Source: Flavobacterium sp. (GTDB lineage Bacteria; Bacteroidota; Bacteroidia; Flavobacteriales; Flavobacteriaceae). Taken from it: DNA of 50,923 nucleotides. Shown here piece by piece: positions 37,548 to 50,923 of this stretch (the stretch's first letter is position 1; each line of letters opens with the position of its first letter). The position numbers and the translations under genes were made by a program. The stretch covers positions 1 through 50,923 of the forward strand of contig JAPLEX010000016.1 in NCBI GenBank assembly GCA_026390995.1, read 5' to 3'. A model generated the notes under the pieces. That model did no database searches. It was not told the origin of the DNA and saw nothing but the letters and a program-made list of their open reading frames with translations.

Positions 37548-37621
37548 TCCTCCTTAGCTCAGTTGGTTAGAGCATCTGACTGTTAATCAGAGGGTCCTTG
37601 GTTCGAGCCCAAGAGGGGGAG
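37548..37621 (+). tRNA. tRNA-Asn (anticodon GTT)
   Basis: Cloverleaf: tcctcct/agggggA acceptor, ctgac-tGTTaat-cag anticodon arm, cttgg-ttcgagc-ccaag T arm; CCA not encoded. Confidence 0.96.
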
Positions 37622-37623
37622 CT
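37594..37623 (+). repeat. att direct repeat (tRNA-proximal)
   Basis: 30-bp exact match to 47289-47318; overlaps the 3' end of tRNA-Asn. Confidence 0.95.
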
Positions 37624-37626
37624 TTC

Positions 37627-37658
37627 AAAAGCCTTTACAGAAATGTAAGGGCTTTTTT
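37627..37658 (+). terminator. tRNA-Asn terminator supplied from inside the element
   Basis: aaaagcctttaca-gaaa-tgtaagggctttt plus T run (13-bp stem, one G-T pair). Confidence 0.8.
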
Positions 37659-37835
37659 GTGTTTATATAAATCCCTTTAAAATATAGCTTTAGGTTTCTA
37701 TTGTAGAAATCACAATAGATAATATCATGATACAATTAGTATTTAATTGTATTAAAAAGGCAGCAAAAAAGGTAACATCACTTTTAGAAAAGGTAACATT
37801 TTATTGAATTGTACGTCTTGTTAACCATTCAAGAC

Positions 37836-39059
37836 ATGACAAAAAACAATTTTAAAGTACTATTTGTTCTTGTAAATAATAGAACTAATAAAAAGAATCA
37901 GAAACCCATTTACTGTAGAATTACTTTAAATGGTCAAAGAAAACAGTTTAGCACTGGAATCAATATTGAAGACATTTATTGGAATTCCAAATCAAAAGTG
38001 ATTTCAAAATCGCATAAATCATCTAGTATTTTTAACTCCCAACTAGAAAATATTAATTCTAAACTTCAAAACATATTTCTGTTTTTCCAATTTCAGAATC
38101 TATCATTTACAGCCGAGGATATTATAGCAAAGTATTTAGGTAAAAATCAAAAAAAAGAAGAACACGTTTTATCGTATTATCTTAAATATCTTGAGAAGAT
38201 AAAAAAACTCATAGGTCTAGAGATAAAAGAAAATACCTACTCTAAGTTTTTTTATGTTTCAAAGCATTTAGAACGCTTTATTCAATGGAATTTTAATAAA
38301 AATGATATTCCATTAAGAGACTTAAATCTTCAGTTTTTAGATGATTTTGATTTCTATTTAAAAACTGAAAAAAAACAAGAACAAATTACAATAAATAAAA
38401 CAATTCAAAGGTTTAGAGCTCCTATAAAATTAGCCATTTCAGAGGGTTATTTGGATAGAGATCCATTCATACTACATAAGACTAAAAAAGTGCGTAAGGA
38501 GGTCTTATTTTTAACTACAGAAGAGCTTAAAACATTAGAAAGCAAGCCAATTAAACAACAAAGGTTAATTGTTGTAAGAGATTTGTTTTTGTTCTGCTGT
38601 TATTCTGGCTTAGCATTTAATGAGATGTCAAATTTGTGCAAACAAAACGTTGTAATTGGATTTGATAAAACAAATTGGATTATGATGAAAAGAGAAAAAA
38701 CACAGCGGCAAATATCAATTCCTATTTTGCCAAAAGCACAAAATATTATTGACAACTATAAAAGTGAAGTAACTGAATTAATTTTTCCAAAAATCAGTAA
38801 TCAAAAATTCAACTCTTATTTAAAAGAAATCGCTGAAATTATTGGTATAGAAAAAAACTTGACTCATCATATCGCAAGAAAGACATTTGCTTCAACTGTA
38901 CTATTATTTAATGATGTGCCAATGGAAATAGTATCAGAATTATTAGGACATTCTAACTTACTAATCACCCAAGAAAGTTATGGGAAAGTTGTTCAAAAAA
39001 AAGTTAGTCAAGTTATGATTGACCTTGCTATAAAATTAGAAACCAATAAAATGGATTAA
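37836..39059 (+). CDS. Tyrosine-type site-specific recombinase/integrase
   Basis: Arm-binding-like N-terminus (QKPIYCRITLNGQRKQFSTGI); catalytic domain FCCYSGLAFNEMSNL...HHIARKTFASTVLLFNDVPMEIVSELLGHSNLLITQESYGKV. ATG at 37836 preferred over TTG 37809. Confidence 0.95.
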   Translation: MTKNNFKVLFVLVNNRTNKKNQKPIYCRITLNGQRKQFSTGINIEDIYWNSKSKVISKSHKSSSIFNSQLENINSKLQNIFLFFQFQNLSFTAEDIIAKYLGKNQKKEEHVLSYYLKYLEKIKKLIGLEIKENTYSKFFYVSKHLERFIQWNFNKNDIPLRDLNLQFLDDFDFYLKTEKKQEQITINKTIQRFRAPIKLAISEGYLDRDPFILHKTKKVRKEVLFLTTEELKTLESKPIKQQRLIVVRDLFLFCCYSGLAFNEMSNLCKQNVVIGFDKTNWIMMKREKTQRQISIPILPKAQNIIDNYKSEVTELIFPKISNQKFNSYLKEIAEIIGIEKNLTHHIARKTFASTVLLFNDVPMEIVSELLGHSNLLITQESYGKVVQKKVSQVMIDLAIKLETNKMD

Positions 39060-39302
39060 TTAAAGATTGTTGATCTCTAATTCCTTTGAAACTTCACAAA
39101 CTGAAGTATTTAAGGCATAACACATCCTTAAAAGTAGATTAATTGTTATGCCTTGTTCATGCCTAAATAATCTTCTTATAGTTGTTTCGCTGCATTGAGT
39201 TGCTTTTGCAAATTCAGAATTGTTTCCGTTAAATTTTACAAGGAATAACTTGTATATCCTTTGAATTAATTCAACTTCTATTTCTTTTATCTGTTTCTGC
39301 AT
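39060..39302 (-). CDS. Small XRE-like helix-turn-helix regulator
   Basis: NNSEFAKATQCSETTIRRLFRHEQGITINLLLRMCYALNTSVCEVSKELE; 80 aa; converges exactly on the integrase stop. Confidence 0.7.
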   Translation of the reverse strand: MQKQIKEIEVELIQRIYKLFLVKFNGNNSEFAKATQCSETTIRRLFRHEQGITINLLLRMCYALNTSVCEVSKELEINNL

Positions 39303-39344
39303 TAAACAAAGAAAATAAACAGGCTTTTCAATAATGTAAATTCA

Positions 39345-39364
39345 ATTCGACTTATAAGTCGAAT
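39345..39364. promoter_or_regulatory. Perfect 20-bp palindrome, candidate operator of the adjacent HTH regulator
   Basis: attcgacttataagtcgaat, starting 43 bp upstream of the divergent HTH gene. Confidence 0.6.
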
Positions 39365-39582
39365 ATTTATCTAGTTTTGTATGTTTGTAAACAAATCCAA
39401 AAAATATTAAATCACAAATTCATCAGTCTACTTGATAAATTTTTGATTAATAACACTAACTGAAAGGTGGTTGCAGTGTAAGAATCTAATATTGTAATTA
39501 ACTTTTTTTAAAAAATACTAGTATAAAAAGGCGTAACCAAAAGCCTGTAGAGTAGTAGGTAAATAATAACACTTTAAATATT

Positions 39583-41154
39583 ATGAGAAAAACAGTTTTA
39601 CTTTCAATGATCATGGGGCTTATGCTATCAGCCCAATCCCTAGTGGCTCAAGCACCAACTATACAATGGCAAAAGTCACTGGGAGGATCAAACCAAGATA
39701 TTGCCTATAATATTCAACTTACAACAGATGGCGGATATATTGTCGCTGGTGGAACTAGTTCAATAGATGGAGATGTAACAGGACAACATGGACTATCTGA
39801 TTTTTGGGTTGTTAAATTAGACAGCCAAGGCGGTGTATTGTGGCAAAAAACATTGGGTGGCTCAGGTGAAGACATTGCCAGAAGCATTCAACAAACAAAT
39901 GATGGCGGATATATAGTGGCTGGATATACTTATTCAACAAATGGGGATATAACAGGTAATAATGGACAATCTGATTATTGGGTGGTAAAATTAAATAGTC
40001 AGGGAGATCTGCTTTGGCAAAAAACACTAGGAGGATCCAACCAAGACGATGCTAGAAGTATTCAACAAACTGCTGATGGTGGTTATATAGTGGCAGGATG
40101 GACTTTATCAATTAATGGTGATGTAACAGGAAATCATGGTGAGCGTGATTATTGGGTTGTGAAAATAGACAGCCAAGGAACAATACAGTGGCAAAAGACA
40201 TTAGGTGGTACAGCTGATGATTTCCCAAGTAGCATTCAACAAACTAATGATGGCGGATATATAGTAGCTGGATATACTTCATCAAACGAGGGAGATGTAT
40301 CAGGGAATAATGGACTAACTGATTATTGGGTTGTAAAACTAAATATCCAAGGAGAATTAGTATGGCAGAAAACACTTGGGGGATCAGATAGTGACGCAGG
40401 TATTAGCATTCATACCACTGCCGATGGCGGATATGTAGTTGGTGGATATGCTTATTCAAACAACGGTGACGTATCTAGCAATCAAGGTAATACTGATTAT
40501 TGGGTTGTTAAATTAGATAATCAAGGGGTCATACTTTGGCAGAAAACACTTGGGGGAACTAACCAAGATGCAGCTTATAGCATTCAGCCCACTTCAGACG
40601 GAGGATATATTGTCGCTGGATATACTTTATCAACCGATGGGGATATTATATTAAATCATGGAGCTATTGATTATTGGGTGGTAAAATTAAACTATCAAGG
40701 AACTATACAATGGCAAAAAACACTTGGCGGCACGGCAGTTGATTATGCCAATAACATTCAACTTACTTCAGATGGCGGTTACATTGTGGCCGGGTATAGC
40801 AATTCAAACAACGGAGATGTCACAGGAAATCAAGGCAATAATGATATGTGGATAGTAAAATTATCTCCAGATGCACTTCAGACCTTAGAATTTGGAAGCA
40901 ATTTGGTTTCTATCTCCCCCAACCCTACTAGCGATAATATCAAAATCCAATTAAAAAATATAACTGAACTAAATGGTGGCACTATCAACATCATTAATTC
41001 TTTAGGACAAGTGATCATCACTACACCAATTAAAATTACTGAAATGAACAACAGCATAGAATTAAATACTCTTGGTAGTAAAGGGATTTATTTTGTTCAA
41101 ATCATCAACTCAAAAGGACAACTTATAGATGTCAAGAAAATCATTTTACAATAA
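39583..41154 (+). CDS. Secreted seven-repeat (beta-propeller-like) protein with T9SS type A sorting domain
   Basis: Signal peptide; seven repeats of WQKTLGG..D.A.SIQ.T.DGGYIVAGYT.S..GDV.GN.G..DYWVVKL..QG; C-terminal VSISPNPTSDNIKIQL...GIYFVQIINSKGQLIDVKKIILQ. Confidence 0.9.
   Translation: MRKTVLLSMIMGLMLSAQSLVAQAPTIQWQKSLGGSNQDIAYNIQLTTDGGYIVAGGTSSIDGDVTGQHGLSDFWVVKLDSQGGVLWQKTLGGSGEDIARSIQQTNDGGYIVAGYTYSTNGDITGNNGQSDYWVVKLNSQGDLLWQKTLGGSNQDDARSIQQTADGGYIVAGWTLSINGDVTGNHGERDYWVVKIDSQGTIQWQKTLGGTADDFPSSIQQTNDGGYIVAGYTSSNEGDVSGNNGLTDYWVVKLNIQGELVWQKTLGGSDSDAGISIHTTADGGYVVGGYAYSNNGDVSSNQGNTDYWVVKLDNQGVILWQKTLGGTNQDAAYSIQPTSDGGYIVAGYTLSTDGDIILNHGAIDYWVVKLNYQGTIQWQKTLGGTAVDYANNIQLTSDGGYIVAGYSNSNNGDVTGNQGNNDMWIVKLSPDALQTLEFGSNLVSISPNPTSDNIKIQLKNITELNGGTINIINSLGQVIITTPIKITEMNNSIELNTLGSKGIYFVQIINSKGQLIDVKKIILQ
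39667..40884 (+). repeat. Seven tandem 174-bp (58-aa) coding repeats
   Basis: W of WQK at 39667 and of unit 7 at 40711 (6 x 174 bp); no indels between units. Confidence 0.95.
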
Positions 41155-41198
41155 ATAACACAATTTATTTTTCAGTTGTGAATTAAAAATTAAAAATC

Positions 41199-41564
41199 AT
41201 GAAATCAATCTTAAAAAAAATCACATTCATTGTCTTATTTTCATCTTTCATTGCTTGTAGTAGTGACAATTCTTCTACTAATTCTAATACATCAAGTATT
41301 ATTGGTAAATGGGCCTATGGGCCAGCTAGGTCATGTGGTCTTAGAAACTATTTTGAACTTAAACCAAATAATGTTTATATAGAAAATCACTATTCAAACA
41401 CTTGTGTATTATCATCCTATTATGATGAATATCAACTTACCGGTGAAAATGAAATAACTTTTTTTGGTAATATCGTAAACAACATAATTGAATTAACACC
41501 AACTAAATTAGTACTTTATGACCCCAGCACTAATGAAACAACAACACACGACAGGATAAATTAA
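41199..41564 (+). CDS. Small lipoprotein, lipocalin-like
   Basis: FSSFIACSSDNSSTNSN lipobox; SIIGKWAYGP...YFELKPNNVYIENHY pattern. Confidence 0.65.
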   Translation: MKSILKKITFIVLFSSFIACSSDNSSTNSNTSSIIGKWAYGPARSCGLRNYFELKPNNVYIENHYSNTCVLSSYYDEYQLTGENEITFFGNIVNNIIELTPTKLVLYDPSTNETTTHDRIN

Positions 41565-41866
41565 TTTAATTTTTTAGAATTTATTGATATAATTTATAAT
41601 CAATGGCCTAAGGATAAGAATATAATTTTAAAACCTTTAAGCAAAGAATTTAAGAAATACATCAAGTAATTTTTTGATAAAAATATTTTCTAATTTTTTT
41701 TCAAACCTTTTTTTAAAAGTAAGAACACACTAACCCAAAATCATCCCCCGACCTTTTTTAAATTTTGGGAGAACCCCATGCCAACTTAATATGTTGTGTG
41801 TCATTACACATTGTTAAGTGTTATGGGTTTTCGCCGTTTTGTATAATCTTATAAATTTAAAAAACT

Positions 41867-42211
41867 ATGGTTAAAATTGTAGATTTTAAAACCTATCAAA
41901 GAGAAGATGGGGAAGACTTCAATGTACTTGTTGTACAAGGAGGGATTGAAGCTGTAAAAAGCAGAGAAAGTGGCAGAACTTATTTTACTGCCAAAACAAC
42001 AAGAGTACCTTGTACTTTTGATGAAGAAACTTGTGAATTATTAATTGGCTCAAATCTACCTGGCTCAATTAAGAAAGTAGAAGTTGAACCTTATGAATTC
42101 ACCATTGAACAAACTGGAGAGGTTATTGAACGCTCTCACAGATATGAATACATAAGTGAGGAGGATGACATTGTTGAAAACAATGTGCTTCGAAAAGAAG
42201 AGGTGTTGTAG
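41867..42211 (+). CDS. Hypothetical protein (114 aa), first gene of the element's replication-like module
   Basis: MVKIVDFKTYQREDGEDFNVLVVQGGIEAVKSRESGRTYFTAKTTRVPCTF; long intact ORF followed by a terminator; no family recognised. Confidence 0.65.
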   Translation: MVKIVDFKTYQREDGEDFNVLVVQGGIEAVKSRESGRTYFTAKTTRVPCTFDEETCELLIGSNLPGSIKKVEVEPYEFTIEQTGEVIERSHRYEYISEEDDIVENNVLRKEEVL

Positions 42212-42234
42212 CCTCTTTTTTTAATTAAATGAAT

Positions 42235-42267
42235 AAAGGAGTTTCAGCAATGGAACTCCTTTTTTTA
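42235..42267 (+). terminator. Rho-independent terminator
   Basis: aaaggagtt-N10-aactccttt plus T run. Confidence 0.7.
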
Positions 42268-42316
42268 TTGTAATAAACTATAATTAAAAATATTAGAAAC
42301 CCTTAAAAATAAAATT

Positions 42317-43213
42317 ATGAAATTAACAAAAGCTGAACGTCATCAGGTCAAACTAAGACTTGGTCTATCAGGAGCAAGTGGTTTTGGTAAAACCTATTCT
42401 GCATTATTATTAGCCTATGGAATTACCAATGATTGGAGTAAAATAGCCGTCATTGATACAGAAAATGGCAGTGCAAGTCTCTATTCTCATTTAGGAGATT
42501 ATAACACTTTGACTTTGGAAGAACCATTTAATCCAGAACGTTACATAGAAGCAATCAATACTTGCGAAAAGTCAGGTATGGAAGTGATTATTATTGATTC
42601 CATTTCACATGAATGGTCAGGTAAAAATGGTTGTTTAGAATTACATGAGCAATTGGGTGGTAAATTTCAAGATTGGGCAAGAATCACTCCAAGACATCAA
42701 GCCTTTGTAAACAAAATTATTCAATCAAGCTGCCATATAATTACAACTGTTAGAAGAAAAGTTGATTACTCAATGGATGCTGATATGAATGGTAAATCTA
42801 AAGTGGTTAAACATGGAACGAAAGAAATTACAAGAGAAGGTTTTGAGTACGAATTGACCGCCAATTTTGAATTAATTAACGATAAGCATCTAGCAAAAGC
42901 AAGCAAAGACCGTACAGGATTGTTTATGGATAAGCCCGAGTTTATAATTAATTCAGCAACGGGTAAAAAGCTAATGGAATGGTGCAACAAAGGTATTTCT
43001 TTAAGTAAAATTCAAGAAGAAATTCTTAAATGTGAAACCATTGAAGCGCTAAAACAATTGTATACCAAATATCCAAGTTTTCAGAAAGAAATGCATCTAT
43101 TAATTATGGAAAAAAAAGGTCAATTAGACGATATAAACAATCAACTAATTTCAAGTAAACAAGTAGTAAAATCTAATGAATTTGTAGAGCATGCAAGCAA
43201 CAGTAGTAAATAG
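42317..43213 (+). CDS. AAA/RecA-like ATPase (phage nucleotide-binding / Sak4-like)
   Basis: Walker A GASGFGKTYSALLLA, Walker B VIIIDS, ITTVRRKVDY; TKEITREGFEYELTANFELI...KDRTGLF. Confidence 0.82.
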   Translation: MKLTKAERHQVKLRLGLSGASGFGKTYSALLLAYGITNDWSKIAVIDTENGSASLYSHLGDYNTLTLEEPFNPERYIEAINTCEKSGMEVIIIDSISHEWSGKNGCLELHEQLGGKFQDWARITPRHQAFVNKIIQSSCHIITTVRRKVDYSMDADMNGKSKVVKHGTKEITREGFEYELTANFELINDKHLAKASKDRTGLFMDKPEFIINSATGKKLMEWCNKGISLSKIQEEILKCETIEALKQLYTKYPSFQKEMHLLIMEKKGQLDDINNQLISSKQVVKSNEFVEHASNSSK

Positions 43214-44177
43214 TAATGTCAACAATCAAATTATTGATGAAACAGAAGTAATTCAAAAAGCTTCAAGCAGTTTTATTGAAGCAAACACCATTAAAGTCAA
43301 TTTAAAGCATCTAAAAGAGGATTGTATTATTCCTGTGTTCTCAAAGGACAATGAAAGCACTATATCTCATTTTCAATTTATAAATAAAGCGTTTGAAGTT
43401 GTAAAAGATTTGTTTCCAGATTTTAACCCAAAAGAGCCTGAAATTAGAGTTTCACATGAAATTAAGGGCAGAGTGCCAAGTGCAATAGGAAAACCCGCTA
43501 AAGAGCTCTTAGAAGCAGAAAAAACAGTCTATTATGAACGATGTGCATTCTTAATAGAATTACATCAGGCAAAAGAAGTTGTAAATGGAAATGCATTGAC
43601 ATTATCTGTAGGAGGCGTTCGAAGCTACAGTCAAGAAAATCTATATAGTAAGAAATCTGTAGAGAAATTCAAAATCTTTATAGGCTACCAAAATAAGGTG
43701 TGTACCAATCTATGTATAGCAACAGATGGGTTTAGTAATGAAGTTAGAATATCATCTATTAATGAATTACAGACGGATATGTGCAATTTGTTCAGTAATT
43801 ATGATAGAATAAAACACCTAGGAATGATGGAGCGAATGAGCAGATATTTTTTGGATGAAGAACAATTTGCTCATTTGATTGGCAAAATTAGAATCTACCA
43901 ACATTTGGAAAAAAGTGATCAAAGATTAAAACAACCTTTCCTGTTGAATGATGGACAAGTTAATTCGGTAGTTAGAGATTATTTTAATTGCCCTAATTTT
44001 TCAAGAGATACAAACAAAAACATTTCGCTTTGGAGCTTATATAATTTGTTTACAGAAGCTAATAAGAGCAGCTATATTGACAATAATTTAGAACGAAATG
44101 TAAATGCATACGAGTTCATAAATTCCATTGCATATTCGCTCCAAAATGAACAACCAAATTGGTTTCTCCCATTATAA
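43191..44177 (+). CDS. DUF3871 family protein
   Basis: IPVFSKDNESTISHFQFI...EIRVSHEIKGRVPSAIGKPAKELLEAEKTVYYERCAFLIE...GGVRSYSQENLYSKKSVEKFKIFIGYQNKVCTNLCIATDGF; overlaps the end of the ATPase ORF. Confidence 0.8.
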   Translation: MQATVVNSNVNNQIIDETEVIQKASSSFIEANTIKVNLKHLKEDCIIPVFSKDNESTISHFQFINKAFEVVKDLFPDFNPKEPEIRVSHEIKGRVPSAIGKPAKELLEAEKTVYYERCAFLIELHQAKEVVNGNALTLSVGGVRSYSQENLYSKKSVEKFKIFIGYQNKVCTNLCIATDGFSNEVRISSINELQTDMCNLFSNYDRIKHLGMMERMSRYFLDEEQFAHLIGKIRIYQHLEKSDQRLKQPFLLNDGQVNSVVRDYFNCPNFSRDTNKNISLWSLYNLFTEANKSSYIDNNLERNVNAYEFINSIAYSLQNEQPNWFLPL

Positions 44178-44245
44178 TTATATAGCATTTTTTATAATCC
44201 CAAGTAATAAAAGTATATGCAAAAAAGAGAAAATAAAGAGTTAAA

Positions 44246-44494
44246 ATGAACAAAAATCAACTGGCTGAGATACTAAAATACTGCACGCCAAAAGTTATTT
44301 ACGTTGTTACTTGGAATAATTTACTTAAAAGAATTCTCTGCCCATTTAGAGTAAGAGTGCTAAACCCAGTCGGTGAACTAAAAATGGGCGAGATTTTTTT
44401 AGTTGATGAAGTAAAAGTTACAATGGAATTAAAAACAATTTTTATCATAAATGGTAATGCATACTATTATCACCACTTTGATATTATTATATAG
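44246..44494 (+). CDS. Hypothetical small protein (82 aa)
   Basis: Intact ORF in a same-strand series; no recognised domain. Confidence 0.4.
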   Translation: MNKNQLAEILKYCTPKVIYVVTWNNLLKRILCPFRVRVLNPVGELKMGEIFLVDEVKVTMELKTIFIINGNAYYYHHFDIII

Positions 44495-44773
44495 CTAATT
44501 GCTGAATTTAATTATCCAAAACTACTTCAAAAAATATTTCCTAAAAATTATGTTGCTAAATCGAATTTTTTAAATATTCAGTAAAAATATGTTATTTTTA
44601 AGTGTTAATTATACGGAATAAACATTTTTTTAACAAATAAAGTGATAATAATTAGGAAATGTCAAAAATATTTTGTACGTTTGCAATAATTACAGATTTA
44701 GCATAGTTAAATTGTGTGAAAAAAATAAAAAAGCAATCCTACAAAACAGCAGACAAAAACGACAAAACACATT

Positions 44774-44835
44774 TAAACTATAACTCTTTATAGTTTAGTC
44801 TGACTAAACAGACGCGTCTGACAATAACTGCAGAC
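44774..44835. other. Palindrome/short-repeat cluster, possible replication origin or regulatory RNA/operator
   Basis: taaactata-actctt-tatagttta (44774-44797), tttagtc-t-gactaaa (44794-44808), perfect 12-bp palindrome cagacgcgtctg (44809-44820), repeated cagac/gtctg pentamers to 44835. Confidence 0.6.
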
Positions 44836-44910
44836 AGTTTATATCGAAAAATAAAAGAGGTTATTAAAGTTGTAATTTAAAAATATTATTAATTTTTTAA
44901 ATTATTGAAA

Positions 44911-46419
44911 ATGCCTATTAAAAGGAATGCTCAAACTAAAATTGAGCAGAATGTAGAAATCAAAACTGATAAATTAATTTATCAATCAACTACTCCACTA
45001 ATACCATATCATTCAACTACATATACCCCCATATATGTTACTGATAATAATAATGTGGAATACGTTTGTAAAAACCCTTTAAAACTGGGGATTAAAAAGC
45101 ATTTTGATGCTGAAATCATAGCTGAATGTCAAGCAAATTTTCCGCTATTTTTTGAAAATATAAATACGATATATATTCCCAAAAAAGTCGAAACGCATTT
45201 AAAGAGAAGTGTGCCAAATAGCATTTTAAAAAGAATTGATGCTAATTTAGATATAGCTGTTGAAAAAAGTATTCTAATAGCTTCCGGTCTATCTTCTACA
45301 TTTTACTCTGATGAAAGATGGAAAGAACTCTCATCAAAAATAATGGATGAACAGACCAGAAAAGGAAACGATAATACTCGCATTTATCCAATAATTATTG
45401 ATGCCTTAAAATATAGTACAAATACCACAGAGGGAATTATTAAAGTAAAAACAAATGAATATGGTATCGAAACATATCAAGAAGGTGTTGCCTGTAAATC
45501 ATATTGCATTTCAGACACTTTTTTCAAAGGCAATTTAGTTAAGTACGTCATTAAAGACATGGAGATTCTTGAAAAAAGAAAAAGGTTTTTTTACAATCAA
45601 TTAAAAAAAGCTATTGATAATCCGATTGCAAATAATTTAATCGGGCTTTATTCAAAAATAAAACTCCCGAGTTATGACGAAATATTATATGCAGCAAAAA
45701 AGTTAACTCTAAGTAAGCATAAAAACAAAAAGGGCAAAACACTTACTTTTTTAAATAAGCATCCAAAGTCTTATTTTAAAGATTCTACAACAAGATGTTT
45801 CGTTGAAGAAAACATAAAATTATTTGATTATTTAACTCAACAAGGATTTATGATCCCAATTATTGGCAATGAAAAATCAGGAGGAAGAGTTGTAGATAGT
45901 TTTACGCTCATGCCTAGTTGGATTCGAAAACTTGTTAAAATTGATGGCGAATCTATTGTTGAAGTTGATTATAAAGCTTTACATCCAAATATAGCTATGT
46001 CTCTTTATAGAGGTTCAAAAAAATATTTGACACATAAATTAGTTGCAGAAGAAAGTAATATTGACCTAACAGTAGTTAAAACACTGCATCTTTCATTTTT
46101 CAACGAAACGTTGAGAGGCATGAAGGCCAGTAAACTTTATAATTACTATAAATCATCAGAACCGCAAATGCTGAAAAAAATTGAAGAGGAAAAATGGGGA
46201 AGCATCAAAAATCATAAAATAACATCTATGAGGATGTTTGCTAAAGAAGTAGAAATAATGACAAACTCAATTAGTGAGCTAAATTCAATGGGGATTTGTG
46301 TAGGATATGTTTATGACGCTCTGTTTTGCAAGAAATCAGATGCTCAAATAGTAAAAGAGATTATGGATAAAGTTGCATTAGAAAATAATGTGTTTACGAC
46401 ATCTTGTATTAATTATTAA
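44911..46419 (+). CDS. Divergent palm-domain (family-A-like) DNA polymerase/replication protein, putative
   Basis: Motif-A-like GESIVEVDYKALHPNIAMSL (Asp at codon 45967), motif-C-like GICVGYVYDALFCKKSDAQIVKEIM (Asp at codon 46315), intervening Lys/Arg-rich helix region. ATG 44911 preferred over TTG 44905. Confidence 0.5.
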   Translation: MPIKRNAQTKIEQNVEIKTDKLIYQSTTPLIPYHSTTYTPIYVTDNNNVEYVCKNPLKLGIKKHFDAEIIAECQANFPLFFENINTIYIPKKVETHLKRSVPNSILKRIDANLDIAVEKSILIASGLSSTFYSDERWKELSSKIMDEQTRKGNDNTRIYPIIIDALKYSTNTTEGIIKVKTNEYGIETYQEGVACKSYCISDTFFKGNLVKYVIKDMEILEKRKRFFYNQLKKAIDNPIANNLIGLYSKIKLPSYDEILYAAKKLTLSKHKNKKGKTLTFLNKHPKSYFKDSTTRCFVEENIKLFDYLTQQGFMIPIIGNEKSGGRVVDSFTLMPSWIRKLVKIDGESIVEVDYKALHPNIAMSLYRGSKKYLTHKLVAEESNIDLTVVKTLHLSFFNETLRGMKASKLYNYYKSSEPQMLKKIEEEKWGSIKNHKITSMRMFAKEVEIMTNSISELNSMGICVGYVYDALFCKKSDAQIVKEIMDKVALENNVFTTSCINY

Positions 46420-46436
46420 TAGGAAAACTTTCAAAT

Positions 46437-47096
46437 ATGAAAAACTCAATCAACAATTATATTATATATAAAGCCCAAAATATCTATAACGGTGAAACTT
46501 ATATAGGAGCCACAACAAAATCTCTAGAGGACAGGAAAAAAGACCATATACAAAAATCAAATAAAAAAGTTGGAAGTTATTTTCAAGAAGCCATTTGGAC
46601 TTTTGGCCCAGAAGCTTTTGTGTGGGAGCAAGTCGACACTGCTAAAAATATTGACGAACTAGCTTCTAAAGAGATAAAGTATATTTCAGAATTTAACTCA
46701 TTAGAAAATGGATACAATAGAGATTTTGGTGGTGGATTTAAGAAAACCATCTATAGGTATAATTTAGATGGTACGTTAAACTCAACTTTTGAAAATCTTA
46801 GTGATGCTGGAGAGAGTATTAATGTTAGAAAACAAGACATAAGCAGAGCCTGTTGGAGTGTGAATCATAATCTAAGTGGATTCTTGTGGAGTTATGATTA
46901 CGTTGAACCATTTATACCTATAGCAGACATTAGGAAAAAAGAAGTTTTACAATATTATTTAAATGGTGATTTTGTAGCAAGGTATATTTCAGTATCAGAA
47001 GCATCAAGTATTACAGGTGTATCAAAAACTTGTATTTCTAGGTGTTGTAGAGGAGAAAGAGTACAATCTGGTGGTTTCCTTTGGAAGTACTCCTAA
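46437..47096 (+). CDS. GIY-YIG nuclease with NUMOD-like C-terminal repeats (homing-endonuclease-like)
   Basis: YIIYKAQNIYNGETYIGATTKSLEDRKKDHIQKS; two NUMOD1-like segments (ENLSDAGESINVRKQDISRACWS..., ISVSEASSITGVSKTCISRCCRGERVQSGGFLWKY). Confidence 0.85.
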   Translation: MKNSINNYIIYKAQNIYNGETYIGATTKSLEDRKKDHIQKSNKKVGSYFQEAIWTFGPEAFVWEQVDTAKNIDELASKEIKYISEFNSLENGYNRDFGGGFKKTIYRYNLDGTLNSTFENLSDAGESINVRKQDISRACWSVNHNLSGFLWSYDYVEPFIPIADIRKKEVLQYYLNGDFVARYISVSEASSITGVSKTCISRCCRGERVQSGGFLWKYS

Positions 47097-47100
47097 ATTT

Positions 47101-47126
47101 AAAGGCGGTGTAAAACCGCCTTTTTT
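47101..47126 (+). terminator. Rho-independent terminator after the GIY-YIG gene
   Basis: aaaggcggt-gtaaa-accgccttt plus T run. Confidence 0.85.
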
Positions 47127-47288
47127 AATACTAGCACTTTCATTTTTTTATGATCCTAAAATCAGTTTATTTAAAATCAATCAAGTAAAGAAAATAAGAA
47201 ATAACAACATTTAATTTAGATTTAAGGCATACAATTCGATAACATAAATGAATTCATTTGCTGAATGCTGACTTATACTGGCTTCAAT

Positions 47289-47318
47289 GTCCTTGGTTCG
47301 AGCCCAAGAGGGGGAGCT
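47289..47318 (+). repeat. att direct repeat (distal)
   Basis: 30-bp exact copy of the tRNA-Asn 3' end; no other part of the tRNA is present. Confidence 0.95.
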
Positions 47319-47980: not shown

Positions 47981-50923
47981 ATGATAAATAAAATCATTAA
48001 TTTTTCCGTAAACAACAAACTCATTACAGGCGTTTTGTTGGCGATATTTGTTTTGTTTGGCATTTATTCATTCACACAATTAAGTGTAGATGCGTTGCCA
48101 GATGTAACTAATAATCAAGTGCAAGTAGTTACAAATACACCTAATTTGGCTACCCAAGAAGTAGAACAATTCATAACCTATCCACTAGAAACCGAGTTTA
48201 AATCATTGTCAGATATGGTCGAATTGCGAAGTACTAGCCGTTCGGGTTTGTCGGTAATTACGATTGTTTTCAAAGACAACGTTCCAGTTAATATTGCTCG
48301 TCAGCGAGTAGATGAAAAAATAAAAACGGCTACCGATAATATTCCAAAACAATATGGGACACCCGAATTATTGCCACCAACAACAGGGCTTGGCGAAATA
48401 TTTCAATATGTTTTAGTGCCACAAAAAGGATATGAAGAAAAATACAACCTATCTGAATTAAGAACCATTCAAGATTGGATTGTGCGCCGTCAATTATTAG
48501 GAACGGTTGGCGTGGTCGATGTGAGCAGTTTTGGTGGTAAACTAAAACAATACGAAGTTTCAGTAAAACCCGAACGACTTTAGGCTAATAATCTAACGTT
48601 AATCGATGTGTTTGATGCGCTGCAAAACAACAACGAAAACACAGGCGGAAGCTACATTGATAAAGGTCCAAATATTTATTTCATTCGTGGCGAAGGATTA
48701 ATTCAAAACATAGAAGACATCAACAATATTGTAGTCAAAAACAATACAGGTGTTCCTATTTTAATAAAGGACATTGCGGAAGTTAAATTTGGTTTTGCAC
48801 CTCGTTACGGAGCAATGACAAGAAACGGAAAAGGTGAAACCGTTGGTGGAGTAGTTTTAATGCAAAAAGGAGAAAACGCTGTACGAGTAATTGAACGAGT
48901 AAAGGAAAAAATGAAATCCATCGAAAAATCTTTGCCAAAAGGTGTGAAAATTGATGTATTTGTAGATAGAACCAAACTAATTGAGAAAACTGTTAGTACG
49001 GTTTCAACCAATTTATTAGAGGGTGCATTAATCGTTATTTTAGTTTTGGTTTTGTTTCTCGGCAGTTTAAGAGCAGGTTTAATTGTGGCTTCTGTCATTC
49101 CTTTAGCAATGCTTTTTGCCATCATTATAATGAATATGTTCGGGTTAAGTGCCAATTTAATGAGTATGGGGGCTTTAGATTTTGGACTTATTGTTGATGG
49201 TGCTGTAATAGTGGTCGAAGCCACTTTGCATATTTTCTCAAAGCATTATAAGAGTAATATCCTTTCTCAAAATCAAATGGATGAGGGTAAAATGTTTATG
49301 CCAATGGCACAAACTGTTAGTTTCGCTATCATAGGCGCATTAATCCTTTCACTTACTTATGTGCCTTGGGCTAGTAGCCTTTTTTTAAGTAAAAGGGTTA
49401 GCGATAAACCTAATTTTACTGATAGGTTTATGAATAAACTGAATAATTTGTATCAACCTTATTTGGTGAAAGCTTTAGAGCGAAAGTTTGCAGTTATCGG
49501 ACCTGCAATATTATTATTTATCGCATCATTATTTATATTCAATTCATTGGGTGTCGAATTTATTCCCGAATTAGACGAGGGAGATTTTGCAATGAATTAC
49601 ACTATTCGACAAGGAAGTAGTTTACCTCAAAGTATTGAAGTAGGTACACAATTAGAAAAACTTGCGCTTACATTTCCGGAAGTTAAAGAAGTAGTTGGCA
49701 AAATTGGAAGTAGCGAAATTCCAACCGACCCAATGCCTATAGAAAGTGCTGATTTGATTATGGTAATGAAAGATAAAAAAGAATGGACAACAGCACACAA
49801 CAAAGAAGATTTAGCCGAGAAAATGAATGAAAAATTAAGTCAGATTCCAGGTTGTAATTTATCTTTTGAGCAACCTATTCAAATACGTTTCAATGAACTA
49901 ATTGCAGGAGTAAAATCGGATATTGCTATAAAAATATTTGGCGATAATTTAGATAAATTGTTTTCAGAAGCCAACAAAGCAGTTCCTATTATTAAAGGGA
50001 TTGAGGGTTTAACCGATATAAAAGTAGAACAAGTTACAGGTAAAATACAATCGAAATAAAATTGCTCAATACGGTTTGAATATTTCCGATGTAAACCGAA
50101 TTTTAAATACGGCTTATGCAGGAGGAACAACTGGCGTTGTTTATGAGGGAGAGAAAAAATTTGATTTGGTCGTTCGTATTCCTAAAAACCAAAACACAGA
50201 TATTGATGCTTTAAAATCATTATTAATTCCAACACCGAGAGGCAATCAAATTCCATTAAACGAAATTGCAGAAATCACTTTTAAAACTGCACCATCACAA
50301 ATAAGTCGTGAAAATGCCGAACGTAGAATAGTAATTGAAGCCAACGTTCGTGGTCGTGATGTAGAAAGTGTAGTATTAGAAATTCAGCAAAAATTAGAAG
50401 CCAAATTAAAACTCCCCGAGGGCTATTTTATTACTTATGGTGGGCAATTTCAAAACCTGCAAGAAGCAAAAGGAAGATTGCAATTGGCTGTTCCTGTTGC
50501 ACTTTTACTGATTTTCTTTTTACTCTTTTTGTCGTTCCGTTCACTCAAAGAAGCAACCATAATATTTTCTGCAATTCCTTTAGCATCTATTGGCGGAATT
50601 ATTGCTTTATGGGTTCGTGGAATGAATTTTAGTATCTCGGCAGGAGTTGGTTTTATTGCGTTATTTGGAGTAGCAGTTTTAAACGGAATCGTTTTAATAA
50701 GTTATTACAATCAATTAAAAGACGAGGGCGAAGACAATCTTTTACAACGTATTTATAAAGGCAGTAGCGCACGATTAAGACCAATTTTAGCAACGGCAAC
50801 CGTTGCTTCATTAGGATTTTTACCAATGGCATTAAGTACAAGTGCAGGTGCAGAAGTGCACAAACCATTAGCAACAGTAGTTATTGGCGGTTTGCTAACT
50901 TCTAAACTGTTAACCTTATTTGT
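47981..50923 (+). pseudogene. CusA/CzcA-family heavy-metal RND permease, degraded and running off the window
   Basis: MINKIINFSVNNKLITGVLLAIFVLFGIYSFTQLSVDALPDVTNNQVQV; in-frame TAG at 48581-48583, apparent in-frame deletion near 49280, frameshift near 50030-50060; reading resumes as KYNRNKIAQYGLNISDVNRILNTAYAGGTTGVVYEG to the window end. Confidence 0.9.

Follow-up and report, generated by a model that had tools for sequence, protein, structure and literature searches.

A tRNA-Asn gene of Flavobacterium sp. (contig JAPLEX010000016.1; the whole 50,923-nt stretch that was analyzed is hereafter the window) is occupied by what we consider, with a probability of roughly two in three, a small integrative element equipped with replication machinery of its own, which excises, copies itself and, being non-conjugative, moves with outside help. 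Its features are as follows, in window coordinates.

37548-37622 (+): tRNA-Asn(gtt), the integration target (ARAGORN)
37594-37623 (+): attL, the 30-bp 3' end of tRNA-Asn; perfect direct repeat; the site is empty in G299
37809-39059 (+): tyrosine integrase, 416 aa; TTG start at 37809, alternative ATG at 37836
39060-39302 (-): small Cro/C1-type HTH protein (HTH_26, 2e-4)
39583-41154 (+): cargo repeat protein with a T9SS sorting tail (Por_Secre_tail, 7.6e-10; 174-nt repeat unit)
41199-41564 (+): cargo, putative lipoprotein (Cys after a signal peptide, from the sequence)
41867-42211 (+): 114-aa core protein, kept in 10 elements (alignment)
42317-43213 (+): RecA-like AAA_24 ATPase (AAA_24, 5.1e-14; phrog_1366, 3.5e-78)
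43191-44177 (+): DUF3871 core protein (PF12987, 6.7e-118)
44246-44494 (+): 82-aa core protein, left edge of the replication-gene slot, kept beside DUF3871 in the GIY-bearing lineage
44495-44904 (no strand): long non-coding, AT-rich stretch preceding the polymerase gene, candidate origin or operator
44905-46419 (+): predicted divergent family A polymerase; start at TTG 44905 or ATG 44911
46437-47096 (+): GIY-YIG nuclease with NUMOD1 repeats (Pfam, 3.6e-7 and 7.4e-6)
47289-47318 (+): attR, second copy of the tRNA-Asn 3' end; the sequence on its far side aligns with the unoccupied G299 site

The two copies of the 30-bp repeat GTCCTTGGTTCGAGCCCAAGAGGGGGAGCT, at 37594-37623 and 47289-47318, are 100% identical and spaced by 9695 bp. 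In 12.3 kb of like composition, chance would produce ~3e-9 30-bp repeats of any sequence and ~8e-17 exact copies of this particular 30-mer. The tRNA-Asn gene is complete despite the insertion, and the G+C content is 30.2% in the element, 43.1% on its left side and 34.4% in the 3.6 kb on its right. In contig C27 of the close relative G299 the site is empty: the window flanks, once joined, align with it end to end over ~147 nt, scoring 238 versus 153 for the occupied left junction, with ~70 bp of right flank compared as the contig ends at the site. Since the G299 sequence following tRNA-Asn matches that following attR in the window, the element is an insertion that leaves the tRNA gene intact; at the level of sequence comparison, its integration at a tRNA gene and its mobility are shown. 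Beside attR, at window positions 47981-50059, a CusA-like RND efflux gene is split into two ORFs (47981-48583 and 48608-50059), which suggests a frameshift or an assembly error.

The first-pass annotation had described a 9695-bp unit bounded by perfect 30-bp tRNA-Asn repeats, which the direct-repeat search and the G299 empty site confirm, and had named ten ORFs, all of which exist in the ORF list. Its view of a discrete tRNA-targeted integrative element carrying a replication-type module is supported, and Pfam, PHROGs and NCBIfam back its labels for the integrase, T9SS cargo, AAA ATPase, DUF3871 and GIY-YIG products. The HTH label holds more loosely, the minus-strand gene product having an HTH_26 match that is weak; it is a probable regulator. 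The integrase combines Arm-DNA-bind_5 (6.4e-14), SAM_5 (4e-15) and Phage_integrase (1.6e-15) domains. The T9SS cargo protein also matches the LipL53-type SBBP family and the delta-60 repeat, and its similarity to the rest of its own genome is essentially confined to the sorting tail. No significant family was found in Pfam, PHROGs or NCBIfam for the lipoprotein, the 114-aa ORF and the 82-aa ORF.

The ORF at 44905-46419, labeled "polymerase-like" in the first-pass annotation, had no Pfam match of any kind, and its PHROG match, phrog_4756 (2.9e-12), is of unknown function. Single-sequence searches yielded almost nothing, with no hit at all in genome contigs, viral contigs, plasmids or the PDB, and the family opened up only with an alignment of three relatives, which retrieved 16 loci in Flavobacterium, Allomuricauda, Nonlabens, Lutibacter, Chitinophagaceae and other MAGs, together with one IMG/VR contig. 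The gene is single-copy in its source genome. An AlphaFold model built from 16 sequences reached a pLDDT of 79, with almost every position from 201 to 502 scoring above 80, and Foldseek against the PDB returned 89 matches at E <= 0.001, the best at E 9e-7 with a probability of 1.00; the PDB fold matches listed are family A enzymes (Klenow, Taq, apicoplast Pol, T7 DNAP). Normalized by query length, global TM scores against PDB structures reach only 0.27-0.37. Such low values make the protein a distant member of family A, and the best BFVD scores (0.52-0.65) are to 400-aa phage proteins, one of them named putative DNA polymerase I. D353 in motif A (VEVDYKALHPNI) and D469 in motif C (YVYDAL), motifs assigned by eye on a hand alignment, are invariant in 16 relatives. 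In the same kind of hand alignment an invariant His, which is unusual, occupies the position of the dNTP-selecting Glu of Pol I, and no exonuclease domain is apparent in the protein. Judged by its model, the product belongs to family A as a highly diverged polymerase of predicted activity; the earlier label is upheld by the fold. Family A membership goes beyond that first annotation, as do the interchangeable replication gene and the defense genes of relatives described below.

The element does not stand alone. At least nine other att-bounded elements with parts of the same core occur in Bacteroidota at Asn, Asp, Met, Val and Arg tRNA genes, the family core consisting of the integrase, the 114-aa protein, the RecA-like ATPase, DUF3871, the 82-aa protein, a replication gene and the GIY-YIG nuclease.

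L044, Flavobacterium ALD4: tRNA-Asn, 41-bp repeat, 15375 bp
L045, Flavobacterium GT3R68: tRNA-Asp, 57-bp repeat, 9110 bp, without AAA and DUF3871
L046, Allomuricauda: tRNA-Asn, 21-bp repeat, partly masked
L048, Allomuricauda zhangzhouensis: tRNA-Asn, 29-bp repeat, 14337 bp
L082, DUF3871 element: tRNA-Met, 32-bp repeat
L083, DUF3871 element: tRNA-Asn, 20-bp repeat
L087, DUF3871 element: tRNA-Val, 38-bp repeat
L092, DUF3871 element: tRNA-Arg, 40-bp repeat
L096, DUF3871 element: tRNA-Asn, 47-bp repeat

When the window proteins were used as tblastn queries, the gene order integrase, cargo, 114-aa protein, AAA_24, DUF3871, 82-aa protein, polymerase, GIY-YIG was found in L044, whose integrase is 67% identical to that of the window, and in L048; it recurs with gaps or breaks in L043, L045, L046 and L053. 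The linked gene set that the first-pass annotation had proposed to seek in other Bacteroidota thus recurs at tRNA genes with att repeats, and instead of genes unlinked to tRNA or pieces of a larger prophage or ICE, compact att-bounded units were found repeatedly. A second att repeat was not found in the DNA fetched for the tRNA-adjacent polymerase loci L047, L050, L053 and L055-L057. At the L047 locus (L035:9241-12888, Flavobacterium omnivorum), a tRNA-Met gene is accompanied only by an unrelated tyrosine-type integrase, a 125-aa ORF and the polymerase, possibly a minimal element. The polymerase and nuclease frames are interrupted in Nonlabens (L053:9959-11952), as is DUF3871 in L095:9416-10314.

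Some relatives are filed in databases under other names. The IMG/VR "virus" IMGVR_UViG_2778261482_000001 (L099, 1-13743) is an att-to-att element with 83-bp terminal repeats that begin with a tRNA-Asn 3' end; it contains a VapE helicase and defense-like cargo, and no structural genes were seen in it. In Bacteroides finegoldii, NZ_OY725960.1 (L034, 1-15501) is recorded as a complete circular, non-mobilizable plasmid of ~15.5 kb that carries two tyrosine integrases, DUF3871, a lipocalin-type lipoprotein and an Eco57I-type restriction-modification gene, without the polymerase. This plasmid is probably the circular form of a related integrative element; it was set aside as a proven excised circle, as the tRNA 3' end was not found in it and hence no attP.

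The region between the 82-aa ORF and the nuclease behaves as an interchangeable replication slot. The window and some of its relatives have the window-type polymerase there. In L092 the slot holds a second polymerase-like protein (motifs DITNSQPY and PIHDSI) fused to GIY-YIG, in L093, L099 and L100 a VapE-type helicase (E 3.7e-35 to 5e-41), and in L098 and L103 a RepA/DnaB-like AAA_25 ATPase. In L097 the slot is empty, so this position does not always require a replication gene, and in L082 and L087 the second type of polymerase is encoded at another place in the element. Comparison of the two polymerase types gave 97.8% with the fused GIY-YIG domains, an inflated value, and 47% (E 2e-4, motif A only) without them; on these alignments they may be remote homologues. 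VapE and RepA/DnaB-like proteins are replication proteins, and their replacing the polymerase at one and the same position argues that the polymerase is a replication gene too. This swap is the best evidence for such a role, which is deduced from it and from the fold.

The GIY-YIG nuclease accompanies every type of replication gene, which indicates that it is a feature of the lineage as a whole and is not tied to the polymerase. Y11, Y22, R33, H37, E79 and N94 are invariant in 12 sequences, so that the catalytic Tyr, Tyr, Arg, Glu and Asn are all in place. The polymerase is fused to GIY-YIG twice (L046 and L048) and to HNH once, in a Chitinophagaceae MAG (L049:1266-3500) where the family A-like polymerase is joined to a NUMOD4-HNH homing-type nuclease in a protein of 745 aa. 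The GIY-YIG nuclease may nick DNA for priming, or may be a settled homing endonuclease.

Among the other core proteins, the AAA_24 ATPase has relatives in 409 phage records, several of them annotated as RecA-like recombination proteins. These phage annotations are the ground for proposing that the ATPase and the 114-aa protein help in handling ssDNA; judged solely by its position beside the ATPase, the 114-aa protein could possibly bind ssDNA. Assignment of the ATPase to the Sak4 annealases was rejected (HK620 Sak4: BLASTP E 1.4, hhalign probability 6%). DUF3871 is present in 15 of the 198 genomes of the order that were surveyed; its model (pLDDT 77) had no PDB match at E <= 0.001, and the sole mention of it met in a literature search was an iron-response study. 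The domain now has a context, as part of the core gene set of integrative elements. The AT-rich interval that immediately precedes the polymerase gene contains the perfect palindrome CAGACGCGTCTG (44809-44820) and copies of CAGAC/GTCTG. As a conserved origin motif the CAGACGCGTCTG cluster was discarded: the position of the interval recurs in relatives, its sequence does not.

From these observations we infer excision, replication of the circle, a role for the nuclease and transfer. Given the type of integrase, circular excision is expected: the enzyme would recombine the 30-bp repeats to release a circle of 9695 bp and would reinsert it, the tRNA gene being rebuilt each time, probably under the control of the small HTH protein. 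The excised element would then be copied by its own replication gene, here the divergent family A polymerase devoid of an exonuclease domain. The 114-aa protein, DUF3871 and the RecA-like ATPase would assist, probably through ssDNA handling and recombination. The GIY-YIG nuclease, adjacent or fused to the polymerase, may nick the DNA and thereby provide the 3' end. Cargo would ride along, usually anti-phage defense in the relatives and, in the window, the T9SS surface or secreted protein and the lipoprotein. As no transfer genes were detected, movement between cells would depend on outside help, be it phage capsids, a conjugative element in the same cell or natural uptake. A bolder version of the copying step, in which the GIY-YIG or HNH nuclease cuts the element's origin and the family A polymerase extends the 3' end, allowing self-copying without a primase or Rep protein, is tentative and in our judgment rather unlikely. 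It somewhat resembles Penelope-like and group II elements, which pair a reverse transcriptase with such nucleases.

Cargo in the relatives is rich in defense genes. PADLOC detected type IIG or type II restriction-modification in L044, L082, L092 and L097, a Lamassu-like match (LmuB, 3.7e-12) with a methyltransferase in L099, an NsnA-type match in L100 and the phage-defense candidate PDC-S60 in L048, where the match (L048:12186-15329) is a 1047-aa calcineurin-like phosphoesterase plus STAND NTPase. Such cargo, together with sizes of 9-16 kb, would suit a phage satellite with a PICI- or P4-like lifestyle, whose excision and replication are induced by a helper phage, which packages it through a cos/pac-like site while the defense cargo shields the host. 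The VapE-type helicases occupying the replication slot of relatives point the same way, as such helicases occur in many PICIs, and so do the proximity of the RecA-like ATPase to phage homologues and the miscalling of relatives as viruses in IMG/VR. Nevertheless, no capsid-remodeling, terminase or packaging family appeared in the window or among the families listed for nine relatives, and a narrow literature search returned nothing on satellites in Bacteroidota; we regard a satellite as rather unlikely. The first-pass annotation had reported no packaging or transfer genes, and this is supported: Pfam, PHROGs and NCBIfam revealed no capsid, terminase, relaxase or T4SS match in the window element, and the 51 variable proteins of nine relatives contained no capsid, terminase or relaxase family (all NCBIfam families; first 25/50 PHROG families).

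An integrative mobilizable element, conjugating from a cryptic oriT with a relaxase supplied in trans, would not require a relaxase of its own, and Bacteroidota carry many conjugative elements that could supply one; but neither oriT nor relaxase evidence points to it and the related circular plasmid is typed as non-mobilizable, making such a lifestyle very unlikely. We find it highly improbable that the region is a stationary defense or adaptation island whose polymerase and nuclease act in defense or repair, not in replication of the element. Defense genes are indeed common as cargo, yet relatives fill the polymerase slot with replication genes of VapE or RepA type, and mobility is shown by the unoccupied G299 site and by the scatter of tRNA targets. 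As for descent by decay from some larger prophage or ICE, which the phage-like integrase and recombination genes might evoke, it is largely refuted and scarcely credible for a compact att-to-att unit with intact ORFs that recurs in many genera. A self-copying integrative element thus remains our preferred reading.

Among known systems, pipolins are piPolB-encoding integrative elements with a tyrosine recombinase, tRNA-associated att-like repeats and variable cargo, and are sometimes episomal (PMC7385651). The window element likewise has a tyrosine recombinase, tRNA att repeats, its own polymerase and variable cargo. However, this polymerase is family A-like and ~500 aa long instead of family B, and the family differs further in its interchangeable replication gene, its AAA_24-DUF3871-GIY-YIG core and its several tRNA targets; with a family A fold and no piPolB, the element was not retained as a pipolin. 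PICIs and SaPIs share its size, its integration at tRNA or att sites and the regulator beside the integrase and, with the relatives, VapE-type genes and defense cargo; in contrast, no packaging-interference or terminase genes were found in the window element, and a polymerase replaces the VapE helicase. Where the window element has this polymerase instead of a VapE-type or primase replication gene, L093, L099 and L100 do carry the VapE type. Neither the relaxase, with or without a T4SS, of ICEs and IMEs nor the structural and packaging genes of prophages were found in the window element. NBU-type mobilizable elements of Bacteroides, from the same phylum, have a tRNA-targeted tyrosine integrase, but their relaxase/mobilization gene was not found in the window element.

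The family looks like a little-studied vehicle moving anti-virus defenses between bacteria, and it brings into view Bacteroidota mobile elements that carry genes for defense and surface proteins from one tRNA site to another and are listed in some databases as virus or plasmid. The varying genes in the replication slot of otherwise similar elements offer a natural experiment on the exchange of replication modules. Biochemistry can now also reach a new set of compact polymerases of family A, several of which are fused to nucleases. The phrog_4756-type phage polymerases and the "Putative DNA polymerase I" of an uncultured marine phage (BFVD A0A8D9FR19) have a similarly compact family A-like fold of ~400-500 aa, whereas the window type resides in a non-viral integrative element and is sometimes fused to GIY-YIG or HNH. 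More distant proteins in other genomes of the phylum (L062:934-2481 and L063:559-2172) display GGR(F/Y)Y, E(V/L)DYxxLH and HD(S/G)F motifs, a hint that polymerases of this kind form a far broader family.
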